From NCBI GenBank assembly GCA_036381315.1, contig DASVDB010000106.1:1-34384 (forward strand): DNA of 34,384 nt, in the 5' to 3' direction. This DNA comes from Bacilli bacterium (GTDB lineage: Bacteria > Bacillota > Bacilli > Paenibacillales > KCTC-25726). Position 1 is the stretch's first letter, and every line of letters begins with the position of its first letter. Both the position numbers and the translations under genes were made by a program. The notes under the pieces were generated by a model. It ran no database searches, was not told the origin of the DNA, and saw only the letters and a list, made by a program, of their open reading frames with translations. Below are positions 2,108 to 21,583 of this stretch, piece after piece.

Positions 2108-2157
2108 TATGCTAAGAAAAAGCCCGTTTAAAGAAAATGAAGGACAGGACAATCAAA

Positions 2158-5031
2158 ATGAAATTTGCCGTTATCGATCTGGAAACGACCGGAGCTCAGC
2201 CTGATGATGCAATCATCCAGGTTGGGCTCGTTATTATTGATAAGAACAAGATCGCAGGCACTTATACGAAAAAAGTAAATCCGGGCCGAACCATTCCCGA
2301 GTTTATCCAGCGCTTAACCGGCATTACGAACGAAGATGTGCAGGATGCGCCAACAATTGCCGAGGTGCTTACGGAATTGCTGCCCCTTTTGCAAGATGCC
2401 GTATTGGTCGCGCATAACGCTTCCTTTGATGTTGGATATTTGCAAAGAATGCTGCAGAAATGCGGCATGCCGCCCTTTTCCGGGCGAGTGCTGGATACGA
2501 TTCCATTGGCGCGCATGCTGTATCCGGGAATGCCCAGCTTAAACTTGCACAGCCTGGCCAAATCGCTTGGGATTGCCCACGAAAAGTCGCATCAGGCGGA
2601 CAGCGACGCCTTGGCGACGGCGCACGTATTGCTTGCTTGCCTCGAGAAATTGCGCCGCCTGCCGCTTTTGACATTGCAGCGCCTGGACGGCATATTCGCC
2701 GGCGCTCCGCCCGCGTTGGCGGATTTGGCGTGGTTGATCGGCGAAATGCGCGCGCAATGCGAAGCGTCTTTGCCGCTCTTCCTGGATAACGGCAGGGCGT
2801 TTCGGCAAATTCAACTTCATGTCGACGATTGGACGGACGAAGATTTTTCCCGCGACGAATCGCTTGTGGACGCCTGGGCAAACACCGGGTTCAACGATTT
2901 TCTCGCGGAAATCAAGGCGCGGCTTAAACGGAAATTCGACCGATTTGAAGAACGGTCCGCGCAAGATGAGATGATCAGGCTTGTCCACGATTCGTTGGAG
3001 CAAGGAAATCATCTGCTGGTTGAAGCGGGAACGGGAACGGGCAAATCGCTGGCGTATTTGCTGCCGGCGCTTTATTACAGCGCGATGTCCGGGAACAAAA
3101 CCGTTGTCGGCACCCACACGATCCATTTGCAGGAGCAAATCCGCACGCGCGATGTTCCGCTGTTGCAGGAAGTGTTTCCGTTTCCCATCCGGGTTGCCTT
3201 GCTGAAAGGGCGCAACCATTATTTATGCTTGCGTAAATTTGAGGCGAAAATCAACACGCTTGATTTTGCCTATGATTATGATGATCGCATTACGGCCGGG
3301 CAATTGCTGGTGTGGCTTGGCGAGACGGAAACCGGAGATGATGAGGAGCTGCATTTTGGGCCGCACGGCGCGGAGTTTTGGCGAACTGTCGAAAGCGATG
3401 CGGAGTCTTGTTCGGCGAAAACGTGCCCGTGGTTCAAAAAATGTTTTTATCATCGGGCAAAAAACCGCGCCAATCAGGCCGATCTGATCGTTACCAACCA
3501 TTCGCTCCTGCTTTCGGATATGAAAGCCGAAAACAGGCTTTTGCCCGCATACCGGCAGTTGATCATTGATGAGGCTCACCACTTTGAAGAAGAAGCAACC
3601 AGGCATCTCGGCATGGAAGTGCATTATTTTTCTTTGCTGAATGCTTTGCAGCGGTTTTACAAAGACAACCGTTCCGGTCTGCTGCCGGTTTTGGCGGCCA
3701 AATTGGCGCAATCCGGCGACGAAGGGATAACTGAGTGGACTGCCGCGCTGGAACGGCTTTTCCCGGAATTTGTGCGTTTAAAGGAAGAGTGGGATACGCT
3801 CACCCAGCTTATGTTTGATATGCTCGCCAAGATGAATGCGGCGGACCAAAGCGAACAGGGGCAGCACATCTTGCGCTTGCGTCCTGAGCAAATGCCCTCT
3901 CCATGGCCGGCCGCGCTCGAAGCGGAAGACAACATGTATATAGGCATCAGCTCCGTGCTGAACGATTTAAAGCGCATCGTGGATAAAGTCGAACCGCGCC
4001 AAGCGGAACTGGAAATAGAAGGGATACTCGGCGATATTTCGGCGGCTGCCGCCGAATTGTCTAGACAGCGGGACACGCTAAGATTTATTATGAGAATGGC
4101 GGAAGAACAATTTGTCTATTGGCTGGAAGCGTCCAGCGCTTACAAGCAAAAGTCTTTGCTGCTTACCGCCGCGCCGATGGACGTAAGCCCCGTCTTGCGC
4201 GAGCGTTTCTTCGCCGAGAAAGATGCGGTCGTGCTGACTTCGGCGACTTTGTCGGTTAACCAATCATTTGATTATTTGATAGAGGCGCTTGGCCTAAACG
4301 AGGCCCAAAAAGACGGACGGCTGGTTACATCCGTTTTGAAATCTCCGTTTGCTTACAGAGAACAGGCTTTGCTCCTGATCCCGCGCGATTTTGCCAGCGT
4401 TCGGGGAAATGCCTCGGCGTCGTTCATTGCGGAGCTGGCGCAGTCGCTTTCCAGCGTTGCCAAAGCAACCGGCGGACGGATGATGGTGCTGTTTACGTCC
4501 TATCGCATGCTGCGTCAGGTGTATGACCTGATGGTTCCCGAGTTGCTTTCGTCCGGCATGCAAGTTTTGGGACAGGGGATTGGCGGCATCAGCCGCAGTA
4601 AAATGATCGCGTATTTTCAAGAGAATCCGTCCAGTGTTTTGCTTGGCACGAGCAGCTTTTGGGAAGGCGTCGACATTCCCGGCGAAGCGCTGAGCTGCCT
4701 CGCGATCGTCCGCTTGCCGTTTCAGCCGCCGAACCATCCACTGGTTGAAGCAAAATGCGAGATTGCCAGAAGGAAAGAGCAAAACCCGTTTATGCGCGTC
4801 TCCGTCCCGCAAGCGGTCATTAAATTTAAACAGGGATTCGGCCGCTTGATCAGAACGGCGTCGGATAAAGGCATTGTGATTGTGTATGACACGCGGGTGA
4901 TCGAAACGGCTTACGGTAAGTATTTTCTTTATTCGCTTCCCGGGCCCAAAATCGAACATCTTCCGACGCGATCGCTCGTTTCGCGCATTGCGGAGTGGCT
5001 AGCCGAAAGAGAAAAGGGGGATTCCACGTGA
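2158..5031 (+). CDS. dinG: DinG-type helicase with N-terminal exonuclease domain
   Basis: A 957-residue, XPD/DinG-like superfamily 2 protein. Residues 1 to about 180 form a DnaQ-like 3'-5' exonuclease with the DEDDh pattern (DLETTG, HNASFDVGYL, HQADSDA). The helicase part has Walker A GTGTGKS (291-297), DEAH (471-474) and C-terminal motifs SATL and QGFGRLIR. Four cysteines lie between Walker A and DEAH at 357, 418, 423 and 429, the C-x4-C-x5-C layout of the Fe-S ligands of E. coli DinG. ATG 2158 has AGGA at 2146-2149 eight bases upstream; ATG 2137 has no convincing site. The stop overlaps the rex GTG by 4 bases. In Bacillus, dinG also follows panD. The role is DNA repair or replication, likely unwinding and trimming nucleic acid, but the exact substrate cannot be read from sequence. 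Confidence 0.95.
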   Translation: MKFAVIDLETTGAQPDDAIIQVGLVIIDKNKIAGTYTKKVNPGRTIPEFIQRLTGITNEDVQDAPTIAEVLTELLPLLQDAVLVAHNASFDVGYLQRMLQKCGMPPFSGRVLDTIPLARMLYPGMPSLNLHSLAKSLGIAHEKSHQADSDALATAHVLLACLEKLRRLPLLTLQRLDGIFAGAPPALADLAWLIGEMRAQCEASLPLFLDNGRAFRQIQLHVDDWTDEDFSRDESLVDAWANTGFNDFLAEIKARLKRKFDRFEERSAQDEMIRLVHDSLEQGNHLLVEAGTGTGKSLAYLLPALYYSAMSGNKTVVGTHTIHLQEQIRTRDVPLLQEVFPFPIRVALLKGRNHYLCLRKFEAKINTLDFAYDYDDRITAGQLLVWLGETETGDDEELHFGPHGAEFWRTVESDAESCSAKTCPWFKKCFYHRAKNRANQADLIVTNHSLLLSDMKAENRLLPAYRQLIIDEAHHFEEEATRHLGMEVHYFSLLNALQRFYKDNRSGLLPVLAAKLAQSGDEGITEWTAALERLFPEFVRLKEEWDTLTQLMFDMLAKMNAADQSEQGQHILRLRPEQMPSPWPAALEAEDNMYIGISSVLNDLKRIVDKVEPRQAELEIEGILGDISAAAAELSRQRDTLRFIMRMAEEQFVYWLEASSAYKQKSLLLTAAPMDVSPVLRERFFAEKDAVVLTSATLSVNQSFDYLIEALGLNEAQKDGRLVTSVLKSPFAYREQALLLIPRDFASVRGNASASFIAELAQSLSSVAKATGGRMMVLFTSYRMLRQVYDLMVPELLSSGMQVLGQGIGGISRSKMIAYFQENPSSVLLGTSSFWEGVDIPGEALSCLAIVRLPFQPPNHPLVEAKCEIARRKEQNPFMRVSVPQAVIKFKQGFGRLIRTASDKGIVIVYDTRVIETAYGKYFLYSLPGPKIEHLPTRSLVSRIAEWLAEREKGDST

Positions 5032-15223: not shown

Positions 15224-15290
15224 GTAATAAAAGTGGCGCCAACTGTACATAATGGGGTTGTCGAAATTACAACCTCAGGAGGAAAGCAGT

Positions 15291-16151
15291 GTGCCTGACT
15301 GGATGGGAATAGCGCTTCGCACCTTACTGGCGGTAATCGTGTTATTTGCAATGACCAAACTGCTGGGAAAACGCCAAATATCGCAGCTTTCCCTGTTTGA
15401 GTATATAACCGGGATTACGATCGGCGATACGGCGGCGTATGTGGCGTTGGAAATGGGGACGGCCTGGTATTTGGGGCTTATTTCGTTATTCGTATGGGTC
15501 GCGGTTTCGCTCGGCATCGAATTTTTGCAGTTGAAAAGCAAAAAAGTCCGGGATTTTGTCGACGGCAAGGGAACCGTTTTAATCAAGGACGGCAAGCTGT
15601 TGGAGGACAATTTGAAAAAAGAGCGGCTTACGGTCGATGAATTGCTGGCATTGTTGCGCAAAAAGAGCGTGTTTAACACCGCCGATGTGGAATTTGCGGT
15701 GATGGAGCCGAGCGGTGAAGTAAACGTGTTGGTGACAAAAGAAAACAAACCGCTCACGCCAAAAGATTTGGGGATCAAAACAGGGCCCGAGCAGGAGACG
15801 CAAATGGTCATCGCCGACGGCGAGATTTTGGACGAGCCGCTTGCAACGATCGGCTTGAACCGCGAATGGTTGAAAACGGAACTGGACAAACTGGGCGTGG
15901 CTGTCGAAAATGTGTTTTTGGGCCAGGTGGACAGCTATGGCCAGTTATACGTCGATCTCTACGATGACAACATCAAAGTGCCTGCTCCCCAGCAAAAGGC
16001 GGCGCTCTTGGCCACTTTAAAAAAATGCGAAGCCGACCTGGAGATGTTCGGGCTGTCGGTTGACGATCTGCTTGTCAAGAAAATGTACGAATCTTGTTCG
16101 CAGAAGCTGCAGCAGGTCATTGCGGATGTGAAGCCGCTGTTGGTCCGATAG
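15291..16151 (+). CDS. DUF421 (YetF-like) membrane protein
   Basis: A 286-residue protein with three N-terminal membrane segments (about 4-24, 36-55 and 60-80), including the family stretch KLLGKRQISQLSLFEYITGI, followed by a cytoplasmic domain with the duplicated alpha/beta fold typical of YetF/YcaP proteins (GTVLIKDGKLLEDNLKKERL and VIADGEILDEPLATIGLNRE). The biochemical role of the family is unknown; several members are linked to spore or stress functions in Bacillus. GTG 15291 is preferred because AGGAGG at 15277-15282 lies 8 bases upstream; an ATG at 15252 has no site. The last codons and stop are part of a 15-bp tandem repeat, so the C-terminus may have been reshaped recently. It is convergent with proC. 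Confidence 0.88.
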   Translation: MPDWMGIALRTLLAVIVLFAMTKLLGKRQISQLSLFEYITGITIGDTAAYVALEMGTAWYLGLISLFVWVAVSLGIEFLQLKSKKVRDFVDGKGTVLIKDGKLLEDNLKKERLTVDELLALLRKKSVFNTADVEFAVMEPSGEVNVLVTKENKPLTPKDLGIKTGPEQETQMVIADGEILDEPLATIGLNREWLKTELDKLGVAVENVFLGQVDSYGQLYVDLYDDNIKVPAPQQKAALLATLKKCEADLEMFGLSVDDLLVKKMYESCSQKLQQVIADVKPLLVR

Positions 16152-16177
16152 CTGTTGGTCCGATAGCTGTTGGTCCG
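16136..16177. repeat. 15-bp tandem repeat across the DUF421 stop codon
   Basis: GCTGTTGGTCCGATA is present in 2.8 copies (16136-16150, 16151-16165, 16166-16177). The period is five codons, so the reading frame shows LLVR-stop twice and then LLVR without a stop. It looks like recent slipped-strand duplication at the gene end. Confidence 0.9.
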
Positions 16178-18364: not shown

Positions 18365-19465
18365 TTAATGATTGAACGCAAACCATTCGTCCCGGTGGAT
18401 GACTTCCGCGGGGTGGGCGTCGACCCGCTTTTGCGCCTCTTTCAAGGACATGCCGGCTACCGCGCGGATTTGCCAGGATGCGTAATTGCTGACGCCGCGT
18501 CCGATCGTCTGCTTCTGCGCGTTTTGGACTTCAACGACATCGCCCGGATGAAACTCGCCGGTCACGGCGATCACGCCGGCCGGCAGCAGGCTTTTGCCGC
18601 CAAAGAGCAGCGCTTTTTCCGCGCCCTGGTCGATCTGGATCGTACCTTGCGGCTTCGACAAAAAACCGACCCATTGTTTTTTCATCGGGAGAGTTTCCGA
18701 ATGAGTATGGAAATACGTTCCTTTTCCTTGGCCCTTAAGGGCACGCAATAAATCCCCGGGTTCGGCCGCTGTGCCTACGAACGCGGGGACGCCGCCGCGC
18801 ATGGCAATCCGCGCCGCTTCGATCTTGGAACGCATGCCGCCGGTGCCGACAGCGCTGCCGGCGCCGCCCGCGATCCGCATAATCGCTTCGTTGATCTCGT
18901 CAACCTGTCCAATCCGGGTAGCATTGGCGTTTTTCCGCGGATCCGCGGAATACAGCCCGTCCGTATCGGTGACGATCAACAGGTGCTGCGCTTTGACCAG
19001 ATTGGCGGTCAGGGCGCTTAACGTATCGTTGTCGCCGAATTTCAGTTCGTCGACGGAGATCGTGTCGTTTTCGTTGATGATCGGAACCGCCTTTTTTTGC
19101 AAGAGCACTTCGATTGTCATCAGGGCGTTCGTCGCCCGTTTGCGGTTGGAAAAATCCGACCGGGTAAGCAGAAGCTGCGCTACTGGCAGCCCGAAGCGGG
19201 AAAACGCCTCCTGGTACGCTTGCATCAGCAGCGCTTGCCCGACGGCTGCGGAAGCTTGCTTTGCCGCCAGAATTTTCGGGCGCTCTTTGTACCCGATCGA
19301 CATATAACCGGCGGCAACGGCTCCAGAGGTCACAAGCAAAACCTGCGTTCCCTGCCTGATCAGTTCGGCGATCTCCGCGGCGAAATAATCCACCTGTTTC
19401 CGGTTGAGGCCGCCCTCCCGGGTTGTCAGCGAACTGCTGCCGATTTTGACGACGATGCGCTGCAT
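18365..19465 (-). CDS. proB: Glutamate 5-kinase ProB
   Basis: The first, feedback-regulated step of proline synthesis: phosphorylates glutamate at the gamma-carboxyl. The 366-residue protein has the amino-acid kinase domain (VVKIGSSSL with K7, LLVTSGAVAAG, INENDTIS, VTDTDGLYSADPR, GTGGMRSKIEAA) followed from about residue 275 by a C-terminal PUA domain (KALLFGGKSLLPAGV, FHPGDVVEV). AAAGGAG (complement of 19473-19479) is 7 bases before ATG 19465. It is first in the proB-proA-proC operon, directly behind the T-box leader, so expression should rise when tRNA-Pro is uncharged. Confidence 0.97.
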   Translation of the reverse strand: MQRIVVKIGSSSLTTREGGLNRKQVDYFAAEIAELIRQGTQVLLVTSGAVAAGYMSIGYKERPKILAAKQASAAVGQALLMQAYQEAFSRFGLPVAQLLLTRSDFSNRKRATNALMTIEVLLQKKAVPIINENDTISVDELKFGDNDTLSALTANLVKAQHLLIVTDTDGLYSADPRKNANATRIGQVDEINEAIMRIAGGAGSAVGTGGMRSKIEAARIAMRGGVPAFVGTAAEPGDLLRALKGQGKGTYFHTHSETLPMKKQWVGFLSKPQGTIQIDQGAEKALLFGGKSLLPAGVIAVTGEFHPGDVVEVQNAQKQTIGRGVSNYASWQIRAVAGMSLKEAQKRVDAHPAEVIHRDEWFAFNH

Positions 19466-19507
19466 AAAAATGCTCCTTTCAAAGCTTGCGGAGACTTGCA
19501 AATATGC

Positions 19508-19540
19508 AAAAAGACTCCCATCCGGTTAAGGACGAAAGCC
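19508..19540 (-). terminator. T-box attenuator terminator
   Basis: GGCTTTCGTCC (19530-19540) pairs over all 11 positions with GGATGGGAGTC (19513-19523), using four G-U pairs, with a six-base loop and five U (19508-19512). Formation would stop transcription before proB; the T-box antiterminator is its competitor. Confidence 0.75.
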
Positions 19541-19735
19541 TGGCTTCCGCGGTACCACCTTAATTGATGAAAAAATCATCCGCTCTTTTCCGGATAACAG
19601 CCGGATCCTGTCCAACTTGTCATTGGCCGTTCAGGGGCGGGTGCGGAAAGCATGCGCGGTAAATTTTCGCAGCCGGGAAATTTACTCTCTGAACGCCAGG
19701 GGCTTTCCGCCTTTTCCCTTCGTCACGTTTCTTTC
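19508..19735 (-). promoter_or_regulatory. T-box leader (proline) controlling proBAC
   Basis: The T-box AAGGTGGTACCGCGG is at 19547-19561 on the minus strand. Upstream, Stem I can be drawn: GCGGAAAGC (19702-19710) pairs perfectly with GCTTTCCGC (19643-19651), and above it the AGAGAG element (19685-19690) precedes a perfect 8-bp distal stem, GTAAATTT (19678-19685) with AAATTTAC (19659-19666). The likely specifier lies just 3' of Stem I in a C-rich run where CCU (19633-19635) or CCC can be read, both proline codons. Uncharged tRNA-Pro would pair with the specifier and T-box to favour the antiterminator. Coordinates of the outer stem are approximate. Confidence 0.88.
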
Positions 19736-19749
19736 TGTTTTGTAGTTTA

Positions 19750-19778
19750 AAGATAGCATGCGGGCTTATGTTTGTAAA
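19750..19778 (-). promoter_or_regulatory. SigA-type promoter of proBAC
   Basis: On the minus strand TTTACA (19773-19778, 5/6) and TATCTT (19750-19755, 4/6) are spaced exactly 17 bases apart, ending about 15 bases before the start of the folded T-box leader. Predicted start of transcription is near 19743. Confidence 0.72.
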
Positions 19779-19794
19779 GCGCGCATGGCGCGCG

Positions 19795-19890
19795 ACCGGC
19801 TCCGACGCATCCCCTGCGCGTGACGCTGGCAATGGCGGGCAACTGGCTCCGGCGCGTCCCGCCCTCTGTGCGTGATGCCGGCAATGGCGG
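19795..19890. repeat. GC-rich imperfect direct repeat
   Basis: Two copies of a 44-49 bp sequence, 19795-19838 and 19842-19890, both beginning AC(C/T)GGCTCCG and ending GCAATGGCGG, with a 5-base length difference in the middle. They lie upstream of the proBAC promoter. No gene is evident in 19779-19980. Confidence 0.7.
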
Positions 19891-20020
19891 CGCGGTGGCG
19901 GATCATTAAGAAGCGGGCAGCGGGCATAGAAGTGTGCAACTTGGCAACCAGCTTGCATCCGGGCTCGAATTAAAATGTTAGAAATGGCTTTAAAGATCTG
20001 ACTTTTACTGACCTATAGAA

Positions 20021-20191
20021 AAATATATATGAAAAATGGAATATAATTTTCTCAGAATTTGATTTTTTAATGAATATATATGAAAAATAGTATATATTTG
20101 ATCGTGAATTTAAATTTTACACAAATATATATGAAAAATCACATTTATGAGCTGCAAACTGCGACTTTTATGAAAATGTATGTGAAAAAAC
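20021..20191. repeat. AT-rich tandem array, four units of exactly 51 bp
   Basis: AATATATATGAAAAAT begins at 20022, 20073 and 20124 and, with three changes, at 20175, an exact 51-bp spacing each time. The remaining 35 bases per unit diverge, with units 3 and 4 still related (TTTATGAGCTGCAAA and TTTATTGGCCGCAAA). The base composition is far more AT-rich than the surrounding genes. The stretch 19966-20354 holds no recognised gene; units 2-4 are open in one frame (20080-20229, 49 codons) but without a ribosome binding site. Confidence 0.85.
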
Positions 20192-20354
20192 ATATTTATT
20201 GGCCGCAAAGCCCATTTGCCTGCCTTTAGGGACAACCCTGGATGGTTAAGGTTAAGGAGCTATTTTTGCCGAGTGTTCGCCGTGTCTTTACTTCAAGCAG
20301 AAAATGTATTACTTTTAAAAAGCAAGGTAACGGGCAAAATGTGAGGAAAAACAA

Positions 20355-20741
20355 ATGGAAAAGCGACTTTCGCCGGGAATTAAGACCGTTCGGATAATCT
20401 TTTGTGTTTTGGCAATCTTGTTTGGCATTTGCGTCTTGATTCAGGTTTTTCTGGCAGGGCTCGCGATCTTCTACGGGCCGGATAATTGGTCCAGACATAC
20501 ATCATTTATCCATCTGTTCGAGTACTTGCCGATTCTAATGTTTATCCTTAGCTTTTTTGGGCGTATCAAAGGGGCGGCGCGTTGGCTAAGTTTTGGTCTG
20601 ATCCTGTTAATCATGGTGCAATATGCAACGGTCAAGGGCTTGCCCGAAGTAGGATACTTGGCGGCACTGCACCCTGTCGTCGCTTTGCTGATATTTTGGG
20701 CGGCAATTGTGGTGATTCGGCGATCTTTACGGTTATTCTAG
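20355..20741 (+). CDS. DUF6220-like small membrane protein
   Basis: A 128-residue protein with four hydrophobic segments (about 12-38, 53-68, 75-93 and 104-121). The pattern of a first helix followed by FLAGLAIFYGPDNW, an HLFEYLPILM stretch and an AALHPVVALLIFW segment near the end fits the DUF6220 family of four-helix membrane proteins of unknown function. GAGGA lies about 8 bases before the ATG. It is followed 47 bases later by the PhzF-family gene in the same direction. Function cannot be stated. Confidence 0.8.
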   Translation: MEKRLSPGIKTVRIIFCVLAILFGICVLIQVFLAGLAIFYGPDNWSRHTSFIHLFEYLPILMFILSFFGRIKGAARWLSFGLILLIMVQYATVKGLPEVGYLAALHPVVALLIFWAAIVVIRRSLRLF

Positions 20742-20788
20742 CGAGATGAAAATGGTCCTATTCATTGCAATCAAAGGAGTTGTTGCCA

Positions 20789-21583
20789 ATGTCGATTCCC
20801 TTTTACCAAGTCGATGCGTTCACGGATCAGCCGTTTGCCGGCAATCCCGCGGGAGTTTGTCTATTGCCGGGGCCAAAGGGTGATGCGTGGATGCAAAATG
20901 TGGCGGCGGAAATGAATTTGCCGGAAACGGCGTTTCTGCTAAAGCAGGAGGACGGCTATTCCTTGCGTTGGTTCGCCCCGCAAAGCGAAGTTCCGTTGTG
21001 CGGCCATGCCACTTTGGCGAGCGCATATGTGTTATGGGCGACCGGACAACTTGCAGCATCCGTTGAAGCGAGGTTTCACACCAAGAGCGGCCTGTTGACC
21101 GCGGTGAAAAACGGCGATTGGATCGAGCTCAATTTCCCTGCTGAAAAGGCAACGCCGTGCGTTGCGCCGGTATTTTTGCCGGAAGCGCTGGGCTGCGATT
21201 TTGTCTATGTGGGCCGCAACCGCATGGATTATTTGGTGGAAGTGGCGTCGGAAGAAGAGCTAAAATCGCTTGCACCGGATATGAATTTGCTTATGAAAGT
21301 CGACACGCGCGGTGTCATCGTAACGTGCCGGGCGAAGACAAAGCCGTACGATTTCATGTCCCGCTTTTTTTGCCCGCTTCTGGGCGTGCCGGAAGATCCG
21401 GTCACCGGGTCGTCGCACTGTTGCCTTGCGCCGTATTGGCAACAAAAGTTGGGCAAAGACGAATTTGCCGCCTTCCAGGCTTCGCCCCGCGGCGGTGTAC
21501 TGCGCGTGCGCGTTGAGTCTGGAGGCAGGGTGGCGATCAGCGGGCAGGCGGTCGTCGTGCTGAAAGCGGAACTTTTTTCTTGA
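20789..21583 (+). CDS. PhzF-family isomerase/epimerase-like protein
   Basis: A 264-residue protein of the PhzF/diaminopimelate-epimerase-like fold. Family hallmarks are VDAFTDQPFAGNPAGV at the N-terminus, the catalytic Glu46 in LPETAFL, LCGHATLA and the C-terminal EDPVTGSSHCCLAPYW. PhzF itself isomerises a phenazine precursor, but no phenazine genes are near and most members in Bacilli have no proven substrate. ATG 20789 follows AAAGGAG (20773-20779) with a 9-base spacer; an in-frame start at 20765 lies upstream of that site. Likely cytoplasmic. Confidence 0.9.
   Translation: MSIPFYQVDAFTDQPFAGNPAGVCLLPGPKGDAWMQNVAAEMNLPETAFLLKQEDGYSLRWFAPQSEVPLCGHATLASAYVLWATGQLAASVEARFHTKSGLLTAVKNGDWIELNFPAEKATPCVAPVFLPEALGCDFVYVGRNRMDYLVEVASEEELKSLAPDMNLLMKVDTRGVIVTCRAKTKPYDFMSRFFCPLLGVPEDPVTGSSHCCLAPYWQQKLGKDEFAAFQASPRGGVLRVRVESGGRVAISGQAVVVLKAELFS

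Follow-up and report, generated by a model that had tools for sequence, protein, structure and literature searches.

The array of 51-bp units in the window (the whole 34,384-nucleotide stretch of DNA that was analysed) is best read as one copy of a dispersed, non-autonomous, BOX-like non-coding element that carries phased candidate binding sites at the level of DNA. From sequence comparison, we put the probability of this reading at roughly 0.55. The sequence-only reading had offered three options for the array: a decayed coding repeat, a protein-binding array or a chromosome-organising element. The second is the best supported, since near-palindromic sites are conserved above their spacers, their spacing is fixed near five helical turns and no clear RNA-strand asymmetry is seen; it is from these features that we infer binding.

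The motif AATATATATGAAAAAT, which had been described as recurring always 51 bases apart, matches perfectly at 20022, 20073 and 20124 of the window; the copy at 20175 is AATGTATGTGAAAAAA, with three mismatches. The period itself was borne out. At lag 51 the autocorrelation of the array is 0.627. None of 2000 first-order Markov shuffles scored as high, their maximum at any lag from 30 to 100 being 0.500, and TRF also detects the 51-bp period. Because no shuffle matched lag 51, the earlier observation was real, if slightly overstated. It had missed that every unit is a near-palindrome. The parts of the element and its neighbours are as follows:

18365..19501, minus strand: proB, glutamate 5-kinase (TIGR01027, E 5.1e-133), the left neighbour, outside the element
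19525..19732, minus strand: T-box leader of proB (RF00230), which bounds the intergenic region, outside the element
19935..20019, plus strand: head-like flank, GCAACCGAGTTCGNATTAAAATGTTNGAAA...TCTGACTTTTCCTGACC, aligned with C167, C38 and C109 and partly with C1, C56 and C85; left edge approximate, judged by eye
20021..20048, plus strand: site 1, a 28-bp near-palindrome with its right arm degraded in the window copy
20049..20071, plus strand: spacer 1, 23 bp
20072..20099, plus strand: site 2
20100..20122, plus strand: spacer 2, 23 bp, against 24 bp in each of the remaining 11 arrays
20123..20150, plus strand: site 3
20151..20173, plus strand: spacer 3, 23 bp
20174..20201, plus strand: site 4
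20202..20244, plus strand: tail-like flank, common to C9 and C138; C138 is a tail without sites
20355..20741, plus strand: 128-aa ORF without an NCBIfam match at E 1e-10, the right neighbour, outside the element

The array thus lies between the minus-strand proB leader and a plus-strand ORF. The leader matches its Rfam model at 84.7 bits (E 1.4e-18), under the 93-bit gathering score. Elsewhere in the window, 2.8 perfect tandem copies of a 15-bp unit (GCTGTTGGTCCGATA) stand at 16136-16177, at the end of the 15252-16151 ORF.

Lack of any further copy in the genome had been named as part of what would refute the first reading. That part fails, for the window's own genome (G000, a 2.78-Mb draft) holds 11 more full arrays, which the sequence-only reading had missed. 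The 261-bp query gave 13 matches, itself included. An 18-base core, allowed up to two mismatches, matched 42 times (0 in the reversed control) and revealed an extra array on C102 and a lone site on C134. Neither a looser spacing pattern (19 matches, control 2) nor a four-site pattern with up to three mismatches (11 matches in 10 arrays, control 0) added another array. The census stands at 12 four-site arrays, two lone sites (C58 and C134) and the tail-only copy on C138.

All 12 arrays have four units with unit-specific spacers, and their heads and tails are only partial. The site consensus is AAATATATGTGAAAAATCACATATATTT, a near-palindrome of about 28 bp. Sites are spaced 51/52/51 bp in ten arrays and 52/52/52 in C56; the window copy reads 51/51/51 because its second spacer is 1 bp shorter. 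All 36 spacings are therefore 51 or 52 bp, and the three that deviate from 51/52/51 do so by 1 bp each. Pairwise identity averages 0.80-0.83 over the sites and 0.61-0.64 over the spacers (0.68 without C102), where only spacers of equal length were compared. In the C102 array the sites are 0.76 identical to those of the other arrays and the spacers 0.38, yet the spacing is exactly 51/52/51. Because it keeps sites and distances around nearly unrelated spacers, conservation in G000, judged from these mean identities, is seen to track the sites and the distance between them and not the intervening sequence. Descent from a changing master copy, instead of selection in place, could explain part of the site conservation. 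The A-rich centre of the site (TGAAAA) is asymmetric, unlike a perfect dimer site. We rejected a CRISPR array because the spacers are homologous among 11 of the 12 arrays and not unique.

These spacings also bear on whether the array once encoded protein. As had been pointed out, a single frame gives MKNSIY, MKNHIY and VKKHIY in units 2-4, and a decayed coding repeat of 17-residue units would explain this single open frame; unit 1, however, has stops. The multiple of three on which that idea leaned is lost in the family, since 52-bp steps occur in 11 of the 12 G000 arrays and, together with those in most pairs from the related genus described below, break the frame. The conserved columns are symmetric, forming near-palindromes. 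With ten arrays at 51/52/51 and C56 at 52/52/52, the open frame is an accident of the window copy and depends on its 1-bp shorter second spacer. On family spacing and frames we rejected the coding repeat, to which we give next to no credence.

Close relatives were sought in 60 genomes, none of the same genus; the single genome of the same family had no match, and three members of the order gave short, weak matches only (best E 3.9e-5). Three TGTGAAAA boxes at 50-54 bp were found in 10 of 296 genomes of the order, namely G000, eight genomes of another genus (g11) and G132, and the reversed control matched once in each of two genomes. The g11 arrays repeat AATGTATGTGAAAAACAGCATACATT at 51-52 bp between head and tail modules. 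A search of 15 genomes with the g11 core TGTATGTGAAAAACAGCATACA at up to three mismatches (reversed control 0 in all) counted 316, 227, 134, 56, 176, 363, 33, 255, 72, 18, 0 and 0 cores in twelve g11 genomes; the eight three-box genomes have 33-363, two more have 72 and 18, and two have none. Of 126 pairs of neighbouring g11 cores, 119 have a spacing of 51 or 52 bp. Together with the 36 of 36 G000 spacings, this supports the earlier suggestion that 51 bp matters for being near five helical turns.

Fetched g11 arrays, which were selected by the three-box pattern, have 3-13 units, and one-unit forms also occur. The head often contains GGAAACTATAGTTTCC, and the tail is by eye a small hairpin followed by a T-run. 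Most arrays are located 3' of genes. By crude ORF calls, array and 5' gene run in the same direction in 28 of 30 cases, or 23 of 25 with orthologous loci merged; in three arrays that gene is more than 1 kb away. Among the matches listed, of 56, on contig C1 of the g11 genome G168, cores are mostly on the plus strand to about 2.87 Mb and mostly on the minus strand between 2.9 and 6.7 Mb. Exceptions occur, but the pattern looks like an alignment with replication or gene strand.

The arrays of G132 have a period of 51 and the core TGTGAAAAAC. Of its two loci, L204 no longer has the dyad but retains TATGAAAAAC and the 51-bp period. Here (L204:3000-3760) a terminator-like sequence is followed by about 15 units, repeated roughly every 51 bp, whose core is TATGAAAAACCACCC; the A-tract is kept. 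A short core and a common period suggest that the G000 and g11 elements are homologous. In 68 loci of named genomes, retrieved with the 964-aa ORF at 2137-5031 of the window, there were no three TGTGAAA boxes in a row at 49-54 bp.

To follow individual elements, we searched 16 g11 genomes for the gene ends flanking eight g11 arrays and fetched 30 short regions, 21 of which, from three loci, were read; gene calls here are crude. One locus has seven units in G074, four in G295, one each in G232 and G258, and none in G203, G102 and G168. The G258 element is 160 bp long, consisting of head, one unit and tail. The two bases that flank it are immediate neighbours in the empty site of G203, and a terminator-like sequence directly precedes it. 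This was the sole junction analysed base by base, and it has no target duplication. The minimal element also lacks terminal inverted repeats (end-to-end score 5, shuffle mean 5.8). Filled and empty forms are plain at the two other loci, where the junctions are less exact. For the fully resolved g11 locus, insertion is a simpler explanation than that three genomes each lost the element precisely. Another dispersed repeat, roughly 100 bp long and ending in ...CGCTGAAACGGTACCGTCCTTTAAAAGGACGGCAAAGCCGTTTCCACTTG or close variants, lies in g11 intergenic regions (L210, L217 and L218); it stands alone at the otherwise empty site L210 and behind array tails at others.

A DDE-type MITE was rejected because the one element tested, that of G258, has neither terminal inverted repeats nor a target duplication. 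Its position behind a terminator and the missing duplication would suit a group IIC intron reverse transcriptase, which is a conceivable, purely conjectural mobiliser. Carriage by phages or plasmids was likewise rejected, as one g11 element had no match in plasmids and phages and the strict core pattern had none in viral contigs. REP/REPIN sequences mobilised by a Y1 (RAYT) transposase would also be short, intergenic, high-copy palindromes, and Y1 transposases do occur in some array-bearing g11 genomes. However, PF01797 has no match in five carriers, G000, G122 (with 227 cores), G132, G264 and G104; on this ground we rejected REP/RAYT mobilisation and assign it practically no weight.

The turnover at orthologous loci fits another explanation, a parasitic or neutral interspersed minisatellite. 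Units would then multiply by slippage or recombination, the period would merely be inherited, and no host protein need bind. Presence is patchy between and within genera, unit number varies at orthologous loci, and g11 arrays lie mostly 3' of genes; Croucher 2011 takes the similar BOX elements to be parasitic (PMC3049150). Against such an origin, sites are conserved over spacers, C102 keeps exact spacing despite nearly unrelated spacers, and only three of 36 G000 spacings leave the 51/52/51 pattern, each by a single base pair. We regard it as possible but clearly the less probable account.

Stems working as RNA would be expected to show more G·U than A·C mismatches on the transcribed strand. 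In stems of 157 g11 cores, G·U and A·C number 43 and 30, and in the 56 distinct cores 24 and 15; in G000 they number 43 and 45, from 55 reads in which five very symmetric sites appear twice, once per strand, with an equal effect on the two classes. The g11 excess is at most a slight lean to RNA, leaving room for a weak RNA constraint there, and it is missing in G000. Because G·U is not clearly favoured over A·C, a chain of RNA hairpins, made from the strand shown and active as a small RNA or in the 3' regions of mRNAs, is probably the wrong reading of the array. The co-orientation of the 5' gene in g11 and the tail there, which by eye looks like a terminator, speak for RNA, whereas orientation to genes is mixed in G000. 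Folding is mixed too: the two other G000 arrays tested beat their shuffles (z -4.5 to -6.1), but fold well on both strands, and the window copy folds scarcely better than its shuffles (z about -1.2). Rfam covariance models run over 19400-20800 of the window gave no match to the array; a second listed Rfam match, with E 0.29, was taken as chance. From mismatch counts and folding, we rejected the hairpin chain as the main reading and consider an RNA element unlikely.

The last of the original options was a chromosome-organising element, whose phased sites would be used by a nucleoid or segregation protein to the benefit of the host. Its attractions are the near-constant phasing and the company the G000 copies keep, beside the core genes trpE, ftsY/ylxM, pgeF, rho, guaA, nfo and proB. 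A host function of this kind is hard to square with the lack of a match in the single family relative searched, with two of twelve g11 genomes having no core, and with unit numbers that differ between species. In the relatives, patchy presence, modular build and filled or empty sites speak rather for a dispersed BOX-like repeat, and we hold an organising role to be very improbable.

For the BOX-like element that we prefer, the following scheme may apply. A dimeric protein would recognise each near-palindrome of about 28 bp as double-stranded DNA. Since 51-52 bp corresponds to about five helical turns, the bound dimers would lie on one face of the helix, where they could act cooperatively to bend or bridge the DNA. 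As non-autonomous repeats, the elements would spread with the help of a mobiliser acting in trans.

The comparison with BOX can be made part by part. In Streptococcus pneumoniae, BOX is built as boxA-boxB(n)-boxC and, in the text of the paper on these elements, is over-represented between convergent genes and has BOX TIRs (PMC3049150). The likeness lies in an interspersed element with a head, a variable number of tandem units between strains and a tail (PMC3049150). Head and tail do enclose variable tandem units in g11, while G000 has partial flanks and always four units; intergenic copies are many, with presence and absence at orthologous sites observed in g11. The element differs in its 51-52 bp units, in the four-unit form with unit-specific spacers of all 12 G000 arrays, and in the minimal g11 element, which has no IS-like terminal inverted repeats where BOX, as described in that source, has TIRs (PMC3049150). 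Because of these missing repeats, we liken it to BOX in its working and do not class it as a member.

BrickBuilt of Porphyromonas gingivalis, a MITE with a minisatellite, is likewise intergenic, multicopy and arranged as leader, tandem repeat and tail, but its 23-nt repeats follow one another with no spacers and its ends are small inverted repeats (PMC4596501). Here the units are 51-52 bp long and contain near-palindromes, and no TIR was found. No description of these repeats in Paenibacillales was among the literature matches listed. Mycobacterial interspersed repetitive units (MIRU) are dispersed tandem arrays used as VNTRs, with a unit length near 53 bp; they are alike in arrangement and unit length, and belong to another phylum. 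REP, BIME and REPIN sequences are short palindromes in high copy, as are the sites here; they differ in that several of our carriers lack a Y1 transposase and in that the sites form direct arrays of near-constant phase. The arrays are abundant in some genomes (up to 363 cores), are gained and lost between species at fixed places and keep a near-constant phase, and therefore offer a natural system for studying how bacterial minisatellites spread and whether proteins read them.

A period near 52 bp is also found beyond this family. A class-wide pattern search of 250 genomes is not specific: it matched one other genome in the forward direction (G423, by eye an unrelated 52-bp repeat) and four in the reversed control. 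The control matches exposed other tandem arrays of about 52 bp and different sequence. Five genomes of other families, chosen since a 50-54-bp pattern had matched them, were surveyed with TRF over 560 kb in all, which gave 24 arrays of period at least 25, of which 19 are at 51-53 bp (15 of 20 without four previously known places). Dyads in seven of 20 survey arrays beat all 100 shuffles, and others, among them those of L269, L272 and both L276 arrays, are within chance. The arrays of G385, G345, G464, G481 and G423 (for example L255-L262, L272-L276 and L280-L281) have an almost constant 52-bp period with several units that by eye seem unrelated; some in this group have a clear inverted repeat, such as TGTCCGTCAT...ATGACGGACA followed by a T-run.

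Broader samples temper this pattern. Six other Paenibacillales genomes (240 kb) have two arrays, neither at 51-53 bp, and 20 further Bacilli genomes (372 kb) have ten listed arrays, one of them in that range, at 53; six of the ten come from one CRISPR-like locus and others are tRNA-like by eye. In 1.51 Mb from the 68 named loci, one of 14 arrays is at 51. Because the 372-kb and 240-kb surveys are nearly devoid of 51-53-bp arrays, a rule of about 52 bp is not universal. It seems doubtful that intergenic tandem arrays of many Bacilli share a sequence-independent ruler of about 52 bp, or five helical turns. Were the period truly independent of sequence across Bacilli, a physical ruler would have to exist; it would imply a shared mechanism of copying or packaging, with the window element as its Paenibacillales form. 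In Paenibacillus psychroresistens (L062:18386-18540), three 51-bp units with the dyad GCTGTAA...TTACAGC follow an apparent terminator; their sequence differs from that of the window element and their period is equal. A CRISPR-looking array in G307 (L302:13705-15798) has a period of about 73 and the repeat GTTACAACTGAGACCCGAGCAACAAGGGGACTGAAAG.
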